NCBI GenBank assembly: GCA_003246575.1
Contig: QJZZ01000002.1
Span: 1-64,000 of the forward strand
Direction of reading: 5' to 3'
Length of the DNA: 64,000 nucleotides
Source of the DNA: Candidatus Saccharimonadota bacterium
GTDB lineage: Bacteria > Patescibacteriota > Saccharimonadia > Saccharimonadales > Saccharimonadaceae
Positions 58,649 to 63,390 of this stretch are shown here, piece by piece. The notes below the pieces were generated by a model that saw only the letters and a list, made by a program, of their open reading frames with translations, did not search any database and was not told where the DNA came from. Position 1 is the first letter of the stretch, and each line of letters begins with the position of its first letter. The translations under genes were made by a program, and so were the position numbers.

Positions 58649-59176
58649 ATGAGTTTCGCATTAATTCAGAAGGTTAATGACCAGCAAAAGAAAAAACAAG
58701 TTGTCGACGCACGTAGCGGCGACACGGTTCGCGTATACCAAAAGATTCGCGAAGGTAACAAAGAGCGTATCCAGATGTTCGAAGGTGTTGTTATTCGCAC
58801 CGACAACAAAGGTCAGCACACAAGCCGCATCACTGTCCGTAAGGTCGCAAGTGGTGTTGGTGTTGAGAAGTCATTCCTTCTCCACAGCCCATTGATCGAG
58901 CGTGTAGAAGTTGTACGACGCAGCAAGGTCCGCCGTAACTTCCTCAGCTTCCTTCGCCAGCGCAGTGGTAAGTCAGCACGTTTGACTGCCATTGACTTCG
59001 ACCGTAAGGCCGTCAACGACATTCACGATGCTAAGGCTGAAGCTGAAGCAGAGCGCATCAAGGAAGAAGCAAAAGCTGAAGCAGAAGCAAAGCAAGCCGA
59101 AAAAGCTGCTGCAGAAGCAGAGCTCGAAGCGAAGGCTGCAGCTGTCGAAGCTGCCCACAAGGCGAACGAAGCCTAG
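58649..59176 (+). CDS. rplS: Ribosomal protein L19 with long C-terminal extension
   Basis: 175 residues; L19 is normally ~115. Residues ~1-118 are a complete L19: DTVRVYQKIREGNKERIQ, FEGVVI, GVGVEKSFLLHSPLIERVEV, RSKVRRNFL and LRQRSGKSARL. Residues ~120-175 are an added, almost purely Ala/Glu/Lys helix (EAEAERIKEEAKAEAEAKQ and on), expected to form a long charged helix or coiled coil projecting from the 50S subunit. TATAAT at ~58603 and AAGAGGTA before the ATG give a normal leadered message; a terminator follows. Confidence 0.95.
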   Translation: MSFALIQKVNDQQKKKQVVDARSGDTVRVYQKIREGNKERIQMFEGVVIRTDNKGQHTSRITVRKVASGVGVEKSFLLHSPLIERVEVVRRSKVRRNFLSFLRQRSGKSARLTAIDFDRKAVNDIHDAKAEAEAERIKEEAKAEAEAKQAEKAAAEAELEAKAAAVEAAHKANEA

Positions 59177-59198
59177 GCTTCTCGGTACCGAAACTCAT

Positions 59199-59223
59199 AA
59201 ACTCCCGGAAATTCCGGGAGTTT
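59199..59223 (+). terminator. Intrinsic terminator after rplS
   Basis: AAACTCCCGGAA (59199-59210) and TTCCGGGAGTTT (59212-59223) pair; T-run TTTTT follows the stem core. Confidence 0.9.
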
Positions 59224-59228
59224 TTCGT

Positions 59229-59234
59229 TATGAT
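59229..59234 (+). promoter_or_regulatory. -10 element of rnhB-yraN (leaderless)
   Basis: TATGAT, 6 nt before the ATG at 59241, immediately after the rplS terminator. Confidence 0.5.
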
Positions 59235-59240
59235 AGATAT

Positions 59241-60182
59241 ATGATTCTGGGAATTGATGAAGTTGGCCGTGGCGCATGGGCGGGTCCGTTAGTGATGGGC
59301 GCGGTTGTTCTGGGTGGCGTACAGCTTGAGGGGCTGACCGACAGTAAGTTGCTTACGAAGAAACGACGAGAGAAGCTAGACGAAGAGATTCGTTCGTCTG
59401 GTGCCGGTGTTGGTCTCGGGTGGGTATGGCCTGATGAAATTGACGAGATGGGCCTCGGACCAGCACTGCATGTAGCCGCACGTCGTGCCGTCGAAGATGC
59501 GCAGTCCAAAGGCGTTGCGTTTCATGAAATTATTATTGATGGGACAATCAACTTTTTGTCTGATACTCCGCTGGAAACGTATGTCTCAACGATGAAAAAA
59601 GCTGATTTGCTTGTGCCGAGTGTGTCGGCAGCATCGATCGTCGCAAAAGTTGCTCGCGATCAGTACATGTCAGGGCAGGATGAGCGATACGGATTTGCAT
59701 CGCATGTTGGCTATGGCACGGCTGCGCATCGTGCGGCAATCGAGGAATATGGTGTCAGTCCGCAGCATCGATTGAGTATTGCGCCGCTCGTGCGCTATCG
59801 ATCGACGGCAGAGCGGCGGACAGTCTCCGAAGGCAGGCCCACAACGCGTGCAATTGGCAACGACAGTGAATCAGTCGCAGCACTTGAGCTGCAGCGTCGT
59901 GGGCATGAGATACTCGAACGCAATTGGCGAACGAAATGGTGTGAGATCGATATCGTCAGCCGAAAGAACGACACGGTATATTTCGTTGAGGTGAAGCATC
60001 GCAAGACCGATGCGTCAGGATCTGGCATGGAGGCAATCACGACCAAAAAGCTGCAACAAATGAAATTCGCTGCTGAGCTGTACGGCCAACGGCACGCATT
60101 GAAGCAAACAAATCTTCAGCTGATGGCGATTGCGACGGCCGGAGTGCCGCCGCAGATTGTCGATGTCCTAGAGATTGTGTAG
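59241..60182 (+). CDS. rnhB: Ribonuclease HII fused to a YraN (UPF0102) domain
   Basis: 313 residues. The first ~190 form RNase HII: ILGIDEVGRGAWAGP (catalytic Asp and Glu), LTDSKLL, IIIDG (third acidic residue) and VPSVSAASIVAKVARD (fourth), then YG. The last ~105 form a YraN domain: ESVAALELQRRGHEIL, NWRTKWCEIDIVSRK (EID) and VYFVEVKHRK (ExK), a PD-(D/E)XK-type nuclease fold. RNase HII removes ribonucleotides from DNA; YraN is a putative nuclease of unclear role. In many bacteria rnhB and yraN are separate neighbours downstream of rplS; here they are one protein. The end overlaps the convergent pepN by 15 nt. Confidence 0.93.
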   Translation: MILGIDEVGRGAWAGPLVMGAVVLGGVQLEGLTDSKLLTKKRREKLDEEIRSSGAGVGLGWVWPDEIDEMGLGPALHVAARRAVEDAQSKGVAFHEIIIDGTINFLSDTPLETYVSTMKKADLLVPSVSAASIVAKVARDQYMSGQDERYGFASHVGYGTAAHRAAIEEYGVSPQHRLSIAPLVRYRSTAERRTVSEGRPTTRAIGNDSESVAALELQRRGHEILERNWRTKWCEIDIVSRKNDTVYFVEVKHRKTDASGSGMEAITTKKLQQMKFAAELYGQRHALKQTNLQLMAIATAGVPPQIVDVLEIV

Positions 60183-62666
60183 TCGTTCGCGGACTGCGTC
60201 GCCGTCACGCTCGAGCAGATCGACTCGGCCGTCAATTTCTACGAGGCCGAGCTCAATTGTTCGGGTAAGTGCCGTCTGGGTGAGTAGTGGCGTAAAGAAA
60301 TTACTGTAGTCTGCGCGCTGTTTGCGCGTAGCAAGACCACTTGCGGCGTAGCGAGGGAAATCACTGTAGCTTTTGTCGCCACCGAAGGTTTCTTCGATCC
60401 ATACCCAGTTACTCTTCATCCATTCCCACGTCGGGGTTCGCGCGTAGCGATTGCGGATCATGTAAACGAACCAGCGGAAGAGGTCTTGGTGACGAATGGT
60501 TCCATCTTCGGTGAAATTAGCGAGTAGTGCGGAAACTTGATTGTCGGCACGTGCGCTGGTGATACCTGACGCGATATCTTGCTGAAGATCGGCTGACGAA
60601 GTAGTTCGATACGTTGTGAGCAGTGAGTCGATGATTTTATCTGAGCTGTCACGGTACACGACACTGCTGATGACGAGTGAGCGTAGTTCTGGATCAATCT
60701 GCGCAACTCCCGCTCCGTAGAGCTCATCGACTTTGGCGAGCACATCCGGGTCTTGGCTATAGATCATGAGCGACAGGATGGTTGAGCGCAGTTTTGTATC
60801 GTCTTCGCTTTCATCTGCTCCAGCATCCCAGCCGAGGCGGGTATATTGCTCGCGCGCGAGACTACCAGCAAAGACACGAAGCTTGCGATCTGCCTGCTCG
60901 TCAGTTTCGACGAACTTTTTGAGCTCTCCAACGGCAAGTGCCATGATGCTCCATACGTGTTCGCTGGTTTCCTCGCGGTAATGCTCGAGAAGGTCGATGA
61001 GGCCGACGCTCGCTTTGCGTCCGCCGCGCACGAGAAGTGTTTGCTCGTGGAGGAGCTGAAGGCGGTCGAGCTCGGTAAGTGATGTTGATGCGAATATCCG
61101 CTCAAGGTGCTCGTCTGAATAGAGGCTGATGAAGTGCGCGGTATCACCGACATTGAGTCGTTCGTCGTCGGCAATCGGCATCGGTAGGTCTCGTGTTTCG
61201 AGGAGCGCAGGCATATCTTCTGGAGACTCGGCGCCGAGCGGGATTGGCCACAATTGTGAGGATGCTTCGTGAGGGCCGATGAAGAATCGCTCTTGTGTGA
61301 TACCCGACTCATCGATCGAGACGACAGGATAGCCGCTCTGAGAAATCCAGGTATTCATGAGACCGGAAATATCTTTGCCGCTGGCAGCGGATAGGTGTGA
61401 CCAGAGATCGTTCGCTTCGGTGTTGCCATACGCAAACTCTGCGAAGTATGATTGCAAGCCGCGCTGGAATGCTTCGTGTCCGATGTAGGCCTGACACATG
61501 CGCATTAGCCGAGCACCTTTGGCGTAGACGATCGCACCATCGAAGAGTGATGAGATCTCGTCGGGGTGGTTGACGTCAACTTGGACAGACTGTACGCCGT
61601 CCATGGCATCGCGCCTGAGGGCCAGAATGCTTTCATTGGCGGCAAAATCAAGCCATGCGTTCCACTCAGGGTGAATGGCGTCGACGGCGACGTATTCCAT
61701 GAGGGTGGCGAAGCTCTCGTTGAGCCAGAGGTTGTTCCACCAGCGCATAGTGACAAGGTTGCCGAACCATTGGTGTGATAACTCGTGGCTGATAACGGTT
61801 GCGATGTATTGCTTTGACGCGACAGTCGTTGTTGCAGGATCGGCGAGCAGGGCAACTTCGCGGTAGGTGATAAGTCCCCAGTTTTCCATCGCGCCTGAGC
61901 TGAAGTCTGGGAGGGCAACGTGATCAGATTTTGGCAGCGGATATGGCGTGCCAAAGTAGTCATCGAAGAATTCGATTGATTTGACGGCGTGATCAAGCGC
62001 AAAATCAAGGCTGGCGGCTGGTTGCGCAGGTGTGGCCCAGACATTCACCTCGACACCGCTTTTGGTGCGTGCGGTTTTGCTGTGTATCTCGCCGTACACC
62101 CAGGCGACAAGGTAGCTGCTCATTCGTGGTGAAGTACCAAACGTAGTGACGAGCTTCTCATTTTCGACGCGTTGGCTGGCTACTGGCATGTTACCGAGAA
62201 CAGTGATGTCTGTTTCGGTGGTGAGCGTGACGTCGAACGTCGCTTTTGCTTCAGGTTCGTCGATACAAGGGAATACTTCGCGTGCATGGTGGCTTTCGAA
62301 CTGTGTAGCGATCAGCTCTTTCTTGACACCGTCGTGGTCAAAGTAGCAAGGATACATGCCGTGCATTGCGTCGGTGATGATGCCGGTGTAGGTGATGACA
62401 AGCGTTGCGCCGCCGATGGCGATATCGTTGTGGCTAATGACAAGCGCGTCAAAGTCACCGTATGAAAAAGCTACTTGCGTACCGTTGTATGTCACGGTCT
62501 CGACGACGAGTCCATTGCTGTGCAAGGTAATTGTGTTTGCCTCTGGCTGGACTTCGCCATGAATCGTCACGGTGCCGCTGAAGCGACGCTCGATGCGGTC
62601 GATAACGAGTGAAAGTTGGTATGTATCGGGCACAAATTGTTGGATAAGACGAGGAACTGTTTGCAT
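60168..62666 (-). CDS. pepN: M1-family aminopeptidase
   Basis: 832 residues from the ATG at 62666. N-terminal beta domain (TYQLSLVIDRIERRFSGTV), the exopeptidase motif GAMEN within FSSGAMENWGLITY (~253-266), and the zinc motif HELSHQ with the third ligand Glu 18 residues on (NLWLNESFA). The C-terminal helical ERAP-like domain (~500-830) is complete. It removes N-terminal residues from peptides, in line with an organism that must scavenge amino acids. There is no signal peptide, so it should be cytoplasmic. TACAAT ends 9 nt before the ATG and is shared with the divergent nuclease gene. Confidence 0.94.
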   Translation of the reverse strand: MQTVPRLIQQFVPDTYQLSLVIDRIERRFSGTVTIHGEVQPEANTITLHSNGLVVETVTYNGTQVAFSYGDFDALVISHNDIAIGGATLVITYTGIITDAMHGMYPCYFDHDGVKKELIATQFESHHAREVFPCIDEPEAKATFDVTLTTETDITVLGNMPVASQRVENEKLVTTFGTSPRMSSYLVAWVYGEIHSKTARTKSGVEVNVWATPAQPAASLDFALDHAVKSIEFFDDYFGTPYPLPKSDHVALPDFSSGAMENWGLITYREVALLADPATTTVASKQYIATVISHELSHQWFGNLVTMRWWNNLWLNESFATLMEYVAVDAIHPEWNAWLDFAANESILALRRDAMDGVQSVQVDVNHPDEISSLFDGAIVYAKGARLMRMCQAYIGHEAFQRGLQSYFAEFAYGNTEANDLWSHLSAASGKDISGLMNTWISQSGYPVVSIDESGITQERFFIGPHEASSQLWPIPLGAESPEDMPALLETRDLPMPIADDERLNVGDTAHFISLYSDEHLERIFASTSLTELDRLQLLHEQTLLVRGGRKASVGLIDLLEHYREETSEHVWSIMALAVGELKKFVETDEQADRKLRVFAGSLAREQYTRLGWDAGADESEDDTKLRSTILSLMIYSQDPDVLAKVDELYGAGVAQIDPELRSLVISSVVYRDSSDKIIDSLLTTYRTTSSADLQQDIASGITSARADNQVSALLANFTEDGTIRHQDLFRWFVYMIRNRYARTPTWEWMKSNWVWIEETFGGDKSYSDFPRYAASGLATRKQRADYSNFFTPLLTQTALTRTIELGLVEIDGRVDLLERDGDAVRERLHNL

Positions 62667-62674
62667 ATGGATAC

Positions 62675-62686
62675 TATTGTACAATA
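62675..62686. promoter_or_regulatory. Palindromic bidirectional -10 element
   Basis: TATTGTACAATA is a perfect 12-bp palindrome. It contains TACAAT on the plus strand (62680-62685, 6 nt before the ATG at 62692) and TACAAT on the minus strand (62681-62676, 9 nt before the ATG at 62666). One site therefore serves as the -10 for both divergent genes. Confidence 0.65.
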
Positions 62687-62691
62687 CGTCC

Positions 62692-63390
62692 ATGAAGCAG
62701 CGCCAACGACGACTGATTGCCGGCGCCATCGCTCTCGTCGTGTGGGCGGTGGTAATGCTTGTGCATCCAGATAATTACATCGAGGCGCCAAAACTTGAGC
62801 AAACTAAGACCGGTAGCACGACATCTCAAGCTCGTAGCGCACTCGATGAACTTGAAATCAAAGGCAGGGCTGCCAAGACCGGGTATTCGCGTGATCAGTT
62901 TGGCGATGGCTGGGCGGAGTTGAACGGCTGTGACACGCGCAATATCATCTTGGCTCGAGACCTGCAGGATGTGTCGGTTGGTACGAGCTGCACGGTCACG
63001 AGCGGCATTCTCGACGATCCGTACACGGGTAAGCAAATTGCATTCCAGCGCGGAGCATCGACAAGCGCTGCGGTTCAAATCGATCACGTGGTGGCGCTTT
63101 CGAATGCCTGGCAAACAGGTGCGGCCTACTGGACAGACGCGGAGCGCGTTGAGCTTGCCAACGATCCCCTGGAGCTTCTCGCGGTTGACGGACCGGCAAA
63201 TCAGCAAAAATCCGATGGCGACGCCGCGACGTGGTTGCCGTCAAACAAGGCCTTTCGTTGTCAGTACGTAGCGCGGCAGATTGCCGTCAAGCAGAAGTAT
63301 TCTCTGTGGGTGACACAGGCCGAATATGATGCAATTGACCGTATTCTCGCCCAATGTCCGTTCCAAGCGCTACCGGAAAGTGTTTTATGA
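62692..63390 (+). CDS. Membrane-anchored HNH nuclease (DUF1524/GmrSD C-terminal type)
   Basis: 232 residues from the ATG at 62692; longer in-frame starts would lie inside pepN. A signal anchor at ~7-23 (RLIAGAIALVVWAVVMLV) puts the body outside the membrane. FGDGWAELNGCDTRNIILARDL opens the nuclease domain, VQIDHVVALSNAW (~127-139) holds the His of the HNH/DUF1524 motif, and NDPLELLAVDGPANQQKSDGD with TWLP supplies the Asn and Lys that complete the site. Three Cys (GCDTR, SCTV, RCQY) plus a fourth near the end could form disulfides. Similar secreted nucleases degrade environmental DNA. In a nucleotide-auxotrophic organism this would feed scavenging (inference). Confidence 0.85.
   Translation: MKQRQRRLIAGAIALVVWAVVMLVHPDNYIEAPKLEQTKTGSTTSQARSALDELEIKGRAAKTGYSRDQFGDGWAELNGCDTRNIILARDLQDVSVGTSCTVTSGILDDPYTGKQIAFQRGASTSAAVQIDHVVALSNAWQTGAAYWTDAERVELANDPLELLAVDGPANQQKSDGDAATWLPSNKAFRCQYVARQIAVKQKYSLWVTQAEYDAIDRILAQCPFQALPESVL

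Follow-up and report, generated by a model that had tools for sequence, protein, structure and literature searches.

Bidirectional promoters were reportedly defined in terms of -10 symmetry by Warman et al. in 2021 in Nat Microbiol. In Escherichia coli, bidirectional promoters with symmetric -10 elements are established (Warman et al. 2026 in NAR, PMC12825309), and the common distances between their transcription start sites (TSSs) are 18, 10, and 23 bp, with 18 bp being dominant (PMC12825309; PMC10268837, the latter on Salmonella plasmids). For all five of the E. coli bidirectional promoters tested, the basal level was too weak for polymerase competition, which arose only upon strong activation of one side (PMC12825309). 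Another point of comparison is provided by the leaderless genes of Actinobacteria, in which, according to a Mycobacterium tuberculosis study (PMC3898074) and a survey (PMC3160421), a -10 element (TANNNT) is located directly upstream of the ATG. For Saccharibacteria, a literature search found no paper treating leaderless genes.

In the window (i.e., the whole stretch of 64,000 nucleotides analyzed here), the pepN and nuclease genes are divergent and their ATGs are separated by a gap of 25 bp (62667–62691). As in the E. coli bidirectional promoters, the -10 elements on opposite strands overlap, the TSSs (here predicted) diverge, a -35 element appears to be dispensable, and the location is between divergent genes, as is often the case. 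Moreover, the TSS-to-TSS distance predicted from the -10 positions is about 23 bp, which fits the 23-bp class of E. coli. However, the locus differs from the E. coli kind in that both transcripts are predicted to be leaderless and in that the start codons, the start sites, and both -10 elements fall within about 20–28 bp. The commonest offset between the two -10 hexamers at this locus among relatives, +2, corresponds to about 21 bp between predicted TSSs and is outside the 18, 10, and 23 bp classes. Whereas the E. coli promoters are known from TSS mapping, those of Saccharibacteria are predicted from sequence. The spacing of 6–7 nt between -10 and ATG is similar to that directly upstream placement in Actinobacteria, but, compared with the cases cited above, the genes here belong to Saccharibacteria and are arranged head-to-head upon a shared -10.

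The two genes and the gap between them

The minus-strand gene (60168–62666) encodes a pepN-like M1 aminopeptidase of 832 aa (Pfam Peptidase_M1, Peptidase_M1_N, and ERAP1_C) and is predicted to be leaderless or nearly so; its ATG is read as CAT at 62664–62666. The plus-strand gene (62692–63390; ATG at 62692–62694), predicted to be leaderless, encodes a GmrSD_C (PF07510)/HNH-type nuclease of 232 aa (Pfam E = 6e-17), a relative of which is present in 107 of the 121 family genomes. The pepN start (MQTV..) is conserved in relatives. An alternative pepN ATG at 62693 (MDVLYNSIHMQTV) was rejected, as the relatives begin at the MQTV-equivalent position and many of them have in-frame stops upstream. The description of both products as scavenging enzymes in the first-pass annotation is a guess; by eye, no obvious signal peptide was seen in pepN, and the nuclease starts with a hydrophobic segment that resembles a signal or anchor. 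Elsewhere in the window, a single open frame of about 6,770 aa spans positions 2950–23271 (plus strand). Its first two thirds hold numerous RCC1 repeats and IPT/TIG domains, and the product would be a giant repeat protein, probably surface-exposed, in a genome of 0.93 Mb. In addition, an RNase HII-like frame at 58992–60182 (plus strand) appears by eye to be fused to a YraN/UPF0102-like nuclease domain, with no stop codon between the two.

As previously noted, the gap contains TATTGTACAATA (62675–62686), a perfect 12-bp palindrome by sequence inspection, which gives TACAAT on both strands and forms the shared core of two overlapping predicted -10 elements. The predicted nuclease -10 (TACAAT, 62680–62685, plus strand) is 6 nt from the ATG, and the predicted pepN -10 (TACAAT, 62676–62681, minus strand) is 9 nt from the ATG. 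The T-A step at the palindrome center (62680–62681) is common to both hexamers, giving a 2-bp overlap and an offset of +4, such that the locus has the overlapping or coinciding opposite-strand -10s of a bidirectional promoter. Based on the -10 to +1 distance (7 bp for the nuclease), the nuclease mRNA is predicted to begin at the A of its ATG (62692, plus strand) and would be strictly leaderless, while the pepN mRNA is predicted to begin 2–3 nt before its ATG (62668–62669, minus strand) and would be leaderless or carry a 2–3-nt leader. Neither -10 leaves space for a Shine-Dalgarno sequence, as expected of a leaderless pair with -10s about 6–7 nt from the start codons, although the pepN spacer of 9 nt exceeds this usual range and counts against a leaderless reading. 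Only 0.01 copies of TATTGTACAATA are expected per window.

Such spacing is common in the clade. Among partial samples of four Saccharibacteria genomes (for this genome, about 600 kb outside C1:24001–96000, a segment of 72 kb reading as N), TANNNT peaks sharply 6–7 nt before candidate ATGs in all four. The counts at spacers 6 and 7 in this genome are 83 and 63, respectively, compared with a background of 23, and the other three genomes are similar. This pattern indicates that leaderless genes are normal in Saccharibacteria, and interpreting the palindrome as two -10 elements is thus not special pleading. A leaderless-type -10 was found on both sides in 54 of 194 divergent pairs (permuted-motif control: mean 6, with one permutation reaching 36). 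When the four genomes were pooled, five of these 54 pairs had a shared -10, a number that is not significant alone (control mean 1.0, maximum 6). In an initial sample of 37 divergent pairs from this genome, permuted motifs gave 0.06 shared pairs on average (maximum 1) and the real motif gave one; pepN/nuclease is the sole shared pair found in the roughly 600 kb sampled.

The locus was also compared among relatives. Using tblastn, 54 pepN loci together with nuclease loci from family genomes yielded 80 distinct divergent-pair loci, which are related by descent and for which the start codons in MAG relatives are inferred. The head-to-head order of pepN and the nuclease is conserved across Saccharibacteria. 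A pepN -10 at spacer 6–9 is present in all 80 loci, and a good nuclease -10 in 64; the remaining 16 have a weak nuclease -10 or none that was assigned. A matrix-free count of TANNNT in 40 loci gave 45 for pepN and 36 for the nuclease at spacers 6–9, compared with about one per spacer elsewhere. Judging from these sequences, the paired -10s at this locus are not a product of chance, and the earlier proposal of one symmetric -10 for two divergent, predicted leaderless genes is supported by the comparison. For -35 elements, none was found above control spacing for either gene at the relatives' loci. Overlapping or abutting -10s occur in 26 of the 80 loci, and about two thirds of the relatives have separate -10s for the two genes.

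Permitted overlaps and possible fusion or splitting

When the best joint -10 score was computed for every hexamer offset, the only overlapping positive offsets without score loss were +2 (AnTATAnT) and +4 (AnnnTAnnnT). Correspondingly, only +2 (17 loci, AGTATA[AC]T) and +4 (five loci, including the window) were seen among offsets 0–10, in counts that lean toward good -10s because -10 and start choice were scored with an E. coli-like sigma-70-type matrix, a bias limited by the permuted-motif controls. For negative offsets, -1 was seen in three loci and -6 in one. In the tree of pepN (42 rows), a minimum of seven changes between shared and split is required, compared with 15 when the class labels are shuffled, and the window's genus contributes its three +4 loci as a single group. 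Given this linkage by descent, the number of independent events behind the offset rule at this locus is several rather than dozens. The +4 offset is kept in the window's genus with three different cores (TATTGTACAATA, CTATTGTACAATG, and TAGTATACAATG), and TAGTATACAATG is not palindromic and still provides TACAAT one way and TATACT the other way. Thus, with regard to the conservation that the first-pass annotation had proposed to check, the two predicted -10s are kept among relatives and the palindrome itself is not.

Other arrangements were also found. One locus (L198, from G056) has 14 bp between the ATGs (CATGTATACTAGTATATATG), with two TATACT hexamers that abut in crossed order, such that each transcript would begin over the -10 of the other gene. 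An offset of +13 is the second favored arrangement, occurring in 10 loci (e.g., L163, L191, L154, and L157) with the -10s 7 bp apart (TATACCTYTGNTACAAT); in these loci pepN has an extended -10, and the polymerases would still clash sterically.

Some shared and split forms differ by a single segment. Removal of 9 bp between ATAC repeats from L068 (split, +13; AGTATACCTCTGATACAATGGAAT) gives exactly the shared core of L056 (AGTATACAATGGAAT, +4), and removal of 16 bp between TATA repeats from L022 (offset 18) gives AGTATAAT, an L021-type core. The opposite direction, in which duplication splits a shared core, is equally possible because the tree is unrooted. The extended -10 (TGn) of pepN is present in 29 of 31 split loci (offsets 10–30) but in only one of 27 shared loci. 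At +2, this element is lost because the overlap demands an A where the extended -10 needs a G. An offset of +4 is compatible with it only if the nuclease -10 is TAnCAT, and L172 (TGATACAAT, with TATCAT opposite) is exactly so. Given the loss of the extended -10 in sharing and no -35 being seen, weaker promoters are expected, and the shared forms are probably weak.

We consider it very likely that the gap of 25 bp functions as a minimal bidirectional promoter and drives two leaderless or near-leaderless mRNAs. Two housekeeping-sigma -10s (TACAAT) on opposite strands, overlapping at the central T-A step, would allow polymerase to bind in either orientation without a recognizable -35, and transcription would begin at, or 2–3 nt before, each ATG. 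As for its origin, genome compaction is the most likely process, in which short deletions between -10s containing TATA or ATAC would fuse two divergent promoters and only offsets leaving both -10s intact would survive. Such a promoter would be expected to provide weak and roughly independent basal expression in both directions.

Alternative roles of the shared element

The first-pass annotation had proposed that the shared -10 makes expression of the aminopeptidase and the nuclease mutually exclusive or balanced, which would amount to a regulatory switch under selection. The steric part of this argument is sound, as one -10 cannot hold two polymerases (PMC12825309) and transient exclusion during initiation is physically unavoidable. 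The conserved head-to-head pairing, as well as the finding that strong activation one way represses the other way in E. coli (PMC12825309), may also be cited in its favor. However, within small clades the locus alternates between the shared and the split form, as seen from the changes on the pepN tree, and the ATG-to-ATG gap exceeds 80 bp in 15 of the 80 loci. Split promoters 30–60 bp apart would presumably clash too, such that the palindrome adds nothing special. Furthermore, the shared forms, with neither a -35 nor, in nearly all cases, the pepN extended -10, are probably in the weak regime, for which little competition is seen in E. coli. This negligible basal competition and the easy interchange speak against the arrangement existing for the sake of mutual exclusion, and a selected role of this kind seems unlikely.

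It is less probable still that the palindrome is used one way only, with the other gene transcribed with a leader from a promoter inside the neighboring gene; the 16 loci with a weak or unassigned nuclease -10 are consistent with such use, but good -10s at leaderless spacing are present on both strands in the window and in most relatives, and the gap is too short to place, after a gene's own -10, a leader of the usual kind including a Shine-Dalgarno site. Finally, although a perfect inverted repeat within a divergent intergenic region could suggest that a dimeric regulator of both genes (also) binds the palindrome as its operator (e.g., a TTGTACAA-type site), this very improbable reading was rejected, since the symmetric sequence is not conserved across the orthologous loci or in a regulon, the relatives carry AGTATACT, AGTATAAT, AGTATACAAT, or separate -10s (always two -10s and no single motif), little is conserved at these loci outside the -10s, the discriminator, and nearby Ts, and the only other TATTGTACAATA copy in the 931-kb genome is within a coding sequence.

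The same architecture at other gene pairs

The minimal bidirectional promoter proposed for the pepN/nuclease gap has counterparts at other genes. The pattern CATN6AGTATAMTN6ATG, which represents the +2 overlap with both start codons, was found at 48 sites, distributed over 45 of the 295 family genomes, compared with about six strand-hits for a backwards-pattern control in the same 295 genomes and zero sites for a 12-nt-spacer control. Of the 30 +2 sites examined, 23 have an ORF of 60 aa or more starting in each direction. No long ORFs begin at the matches L252, L267, L268, and L270, which are probably due to chance. The gene pairs flanking +2 sites include those for orotidine-5'-phosphate decarboxylase and a dihydroorotate dehydrogenase-family protein, a CDP-archaeol-synthase-like protein and diacylglycerol kinase, D-Ala-D-Ala ligase and an MgsA-type AAA ATPase, and a pterin-binding enzyme and uracil-DNA glycosylase. 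In L251, a single AGTATACT core lies between the head-to-head genes for the OMP decarboxylase and the dihydroorotate dehydrogenase-family protein, which both belong to pyrimidine synthesis. A search for the +4 pattern found 28 sites, compared with one control match, and provides weaker support than the +2 search because most of these sites are AT-rich (ATTATATAAT) and only 10 were checked for ORFs, of which seven passed.

These patterns suggest, with somewhat better than even probability, that a compact type of promoter recurs in Saccharibacteria, in which a single symmetric -10 (mostly AGTATA[AC]T, placing the TSSs about 21 bp apart) is used by two leaderless genes. Repeated promoter fusion in the course of genome reduction, with loss of the extended -10 (TGn), would have traded strength for compactness. 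If so, about 25 bp would accommodate the start codons, transcription starts, and promoters of both genes, which is near the smallest space that geometry allows for the expression of a divergent pair. The split, abutting, and shared forms would then provide a natural series for examining promoter fusion in relation to strength, polymerase competition, and noise, and the rule of tolerated overlaps could be checked in reduced genomes, where promoter biology is almost blank.
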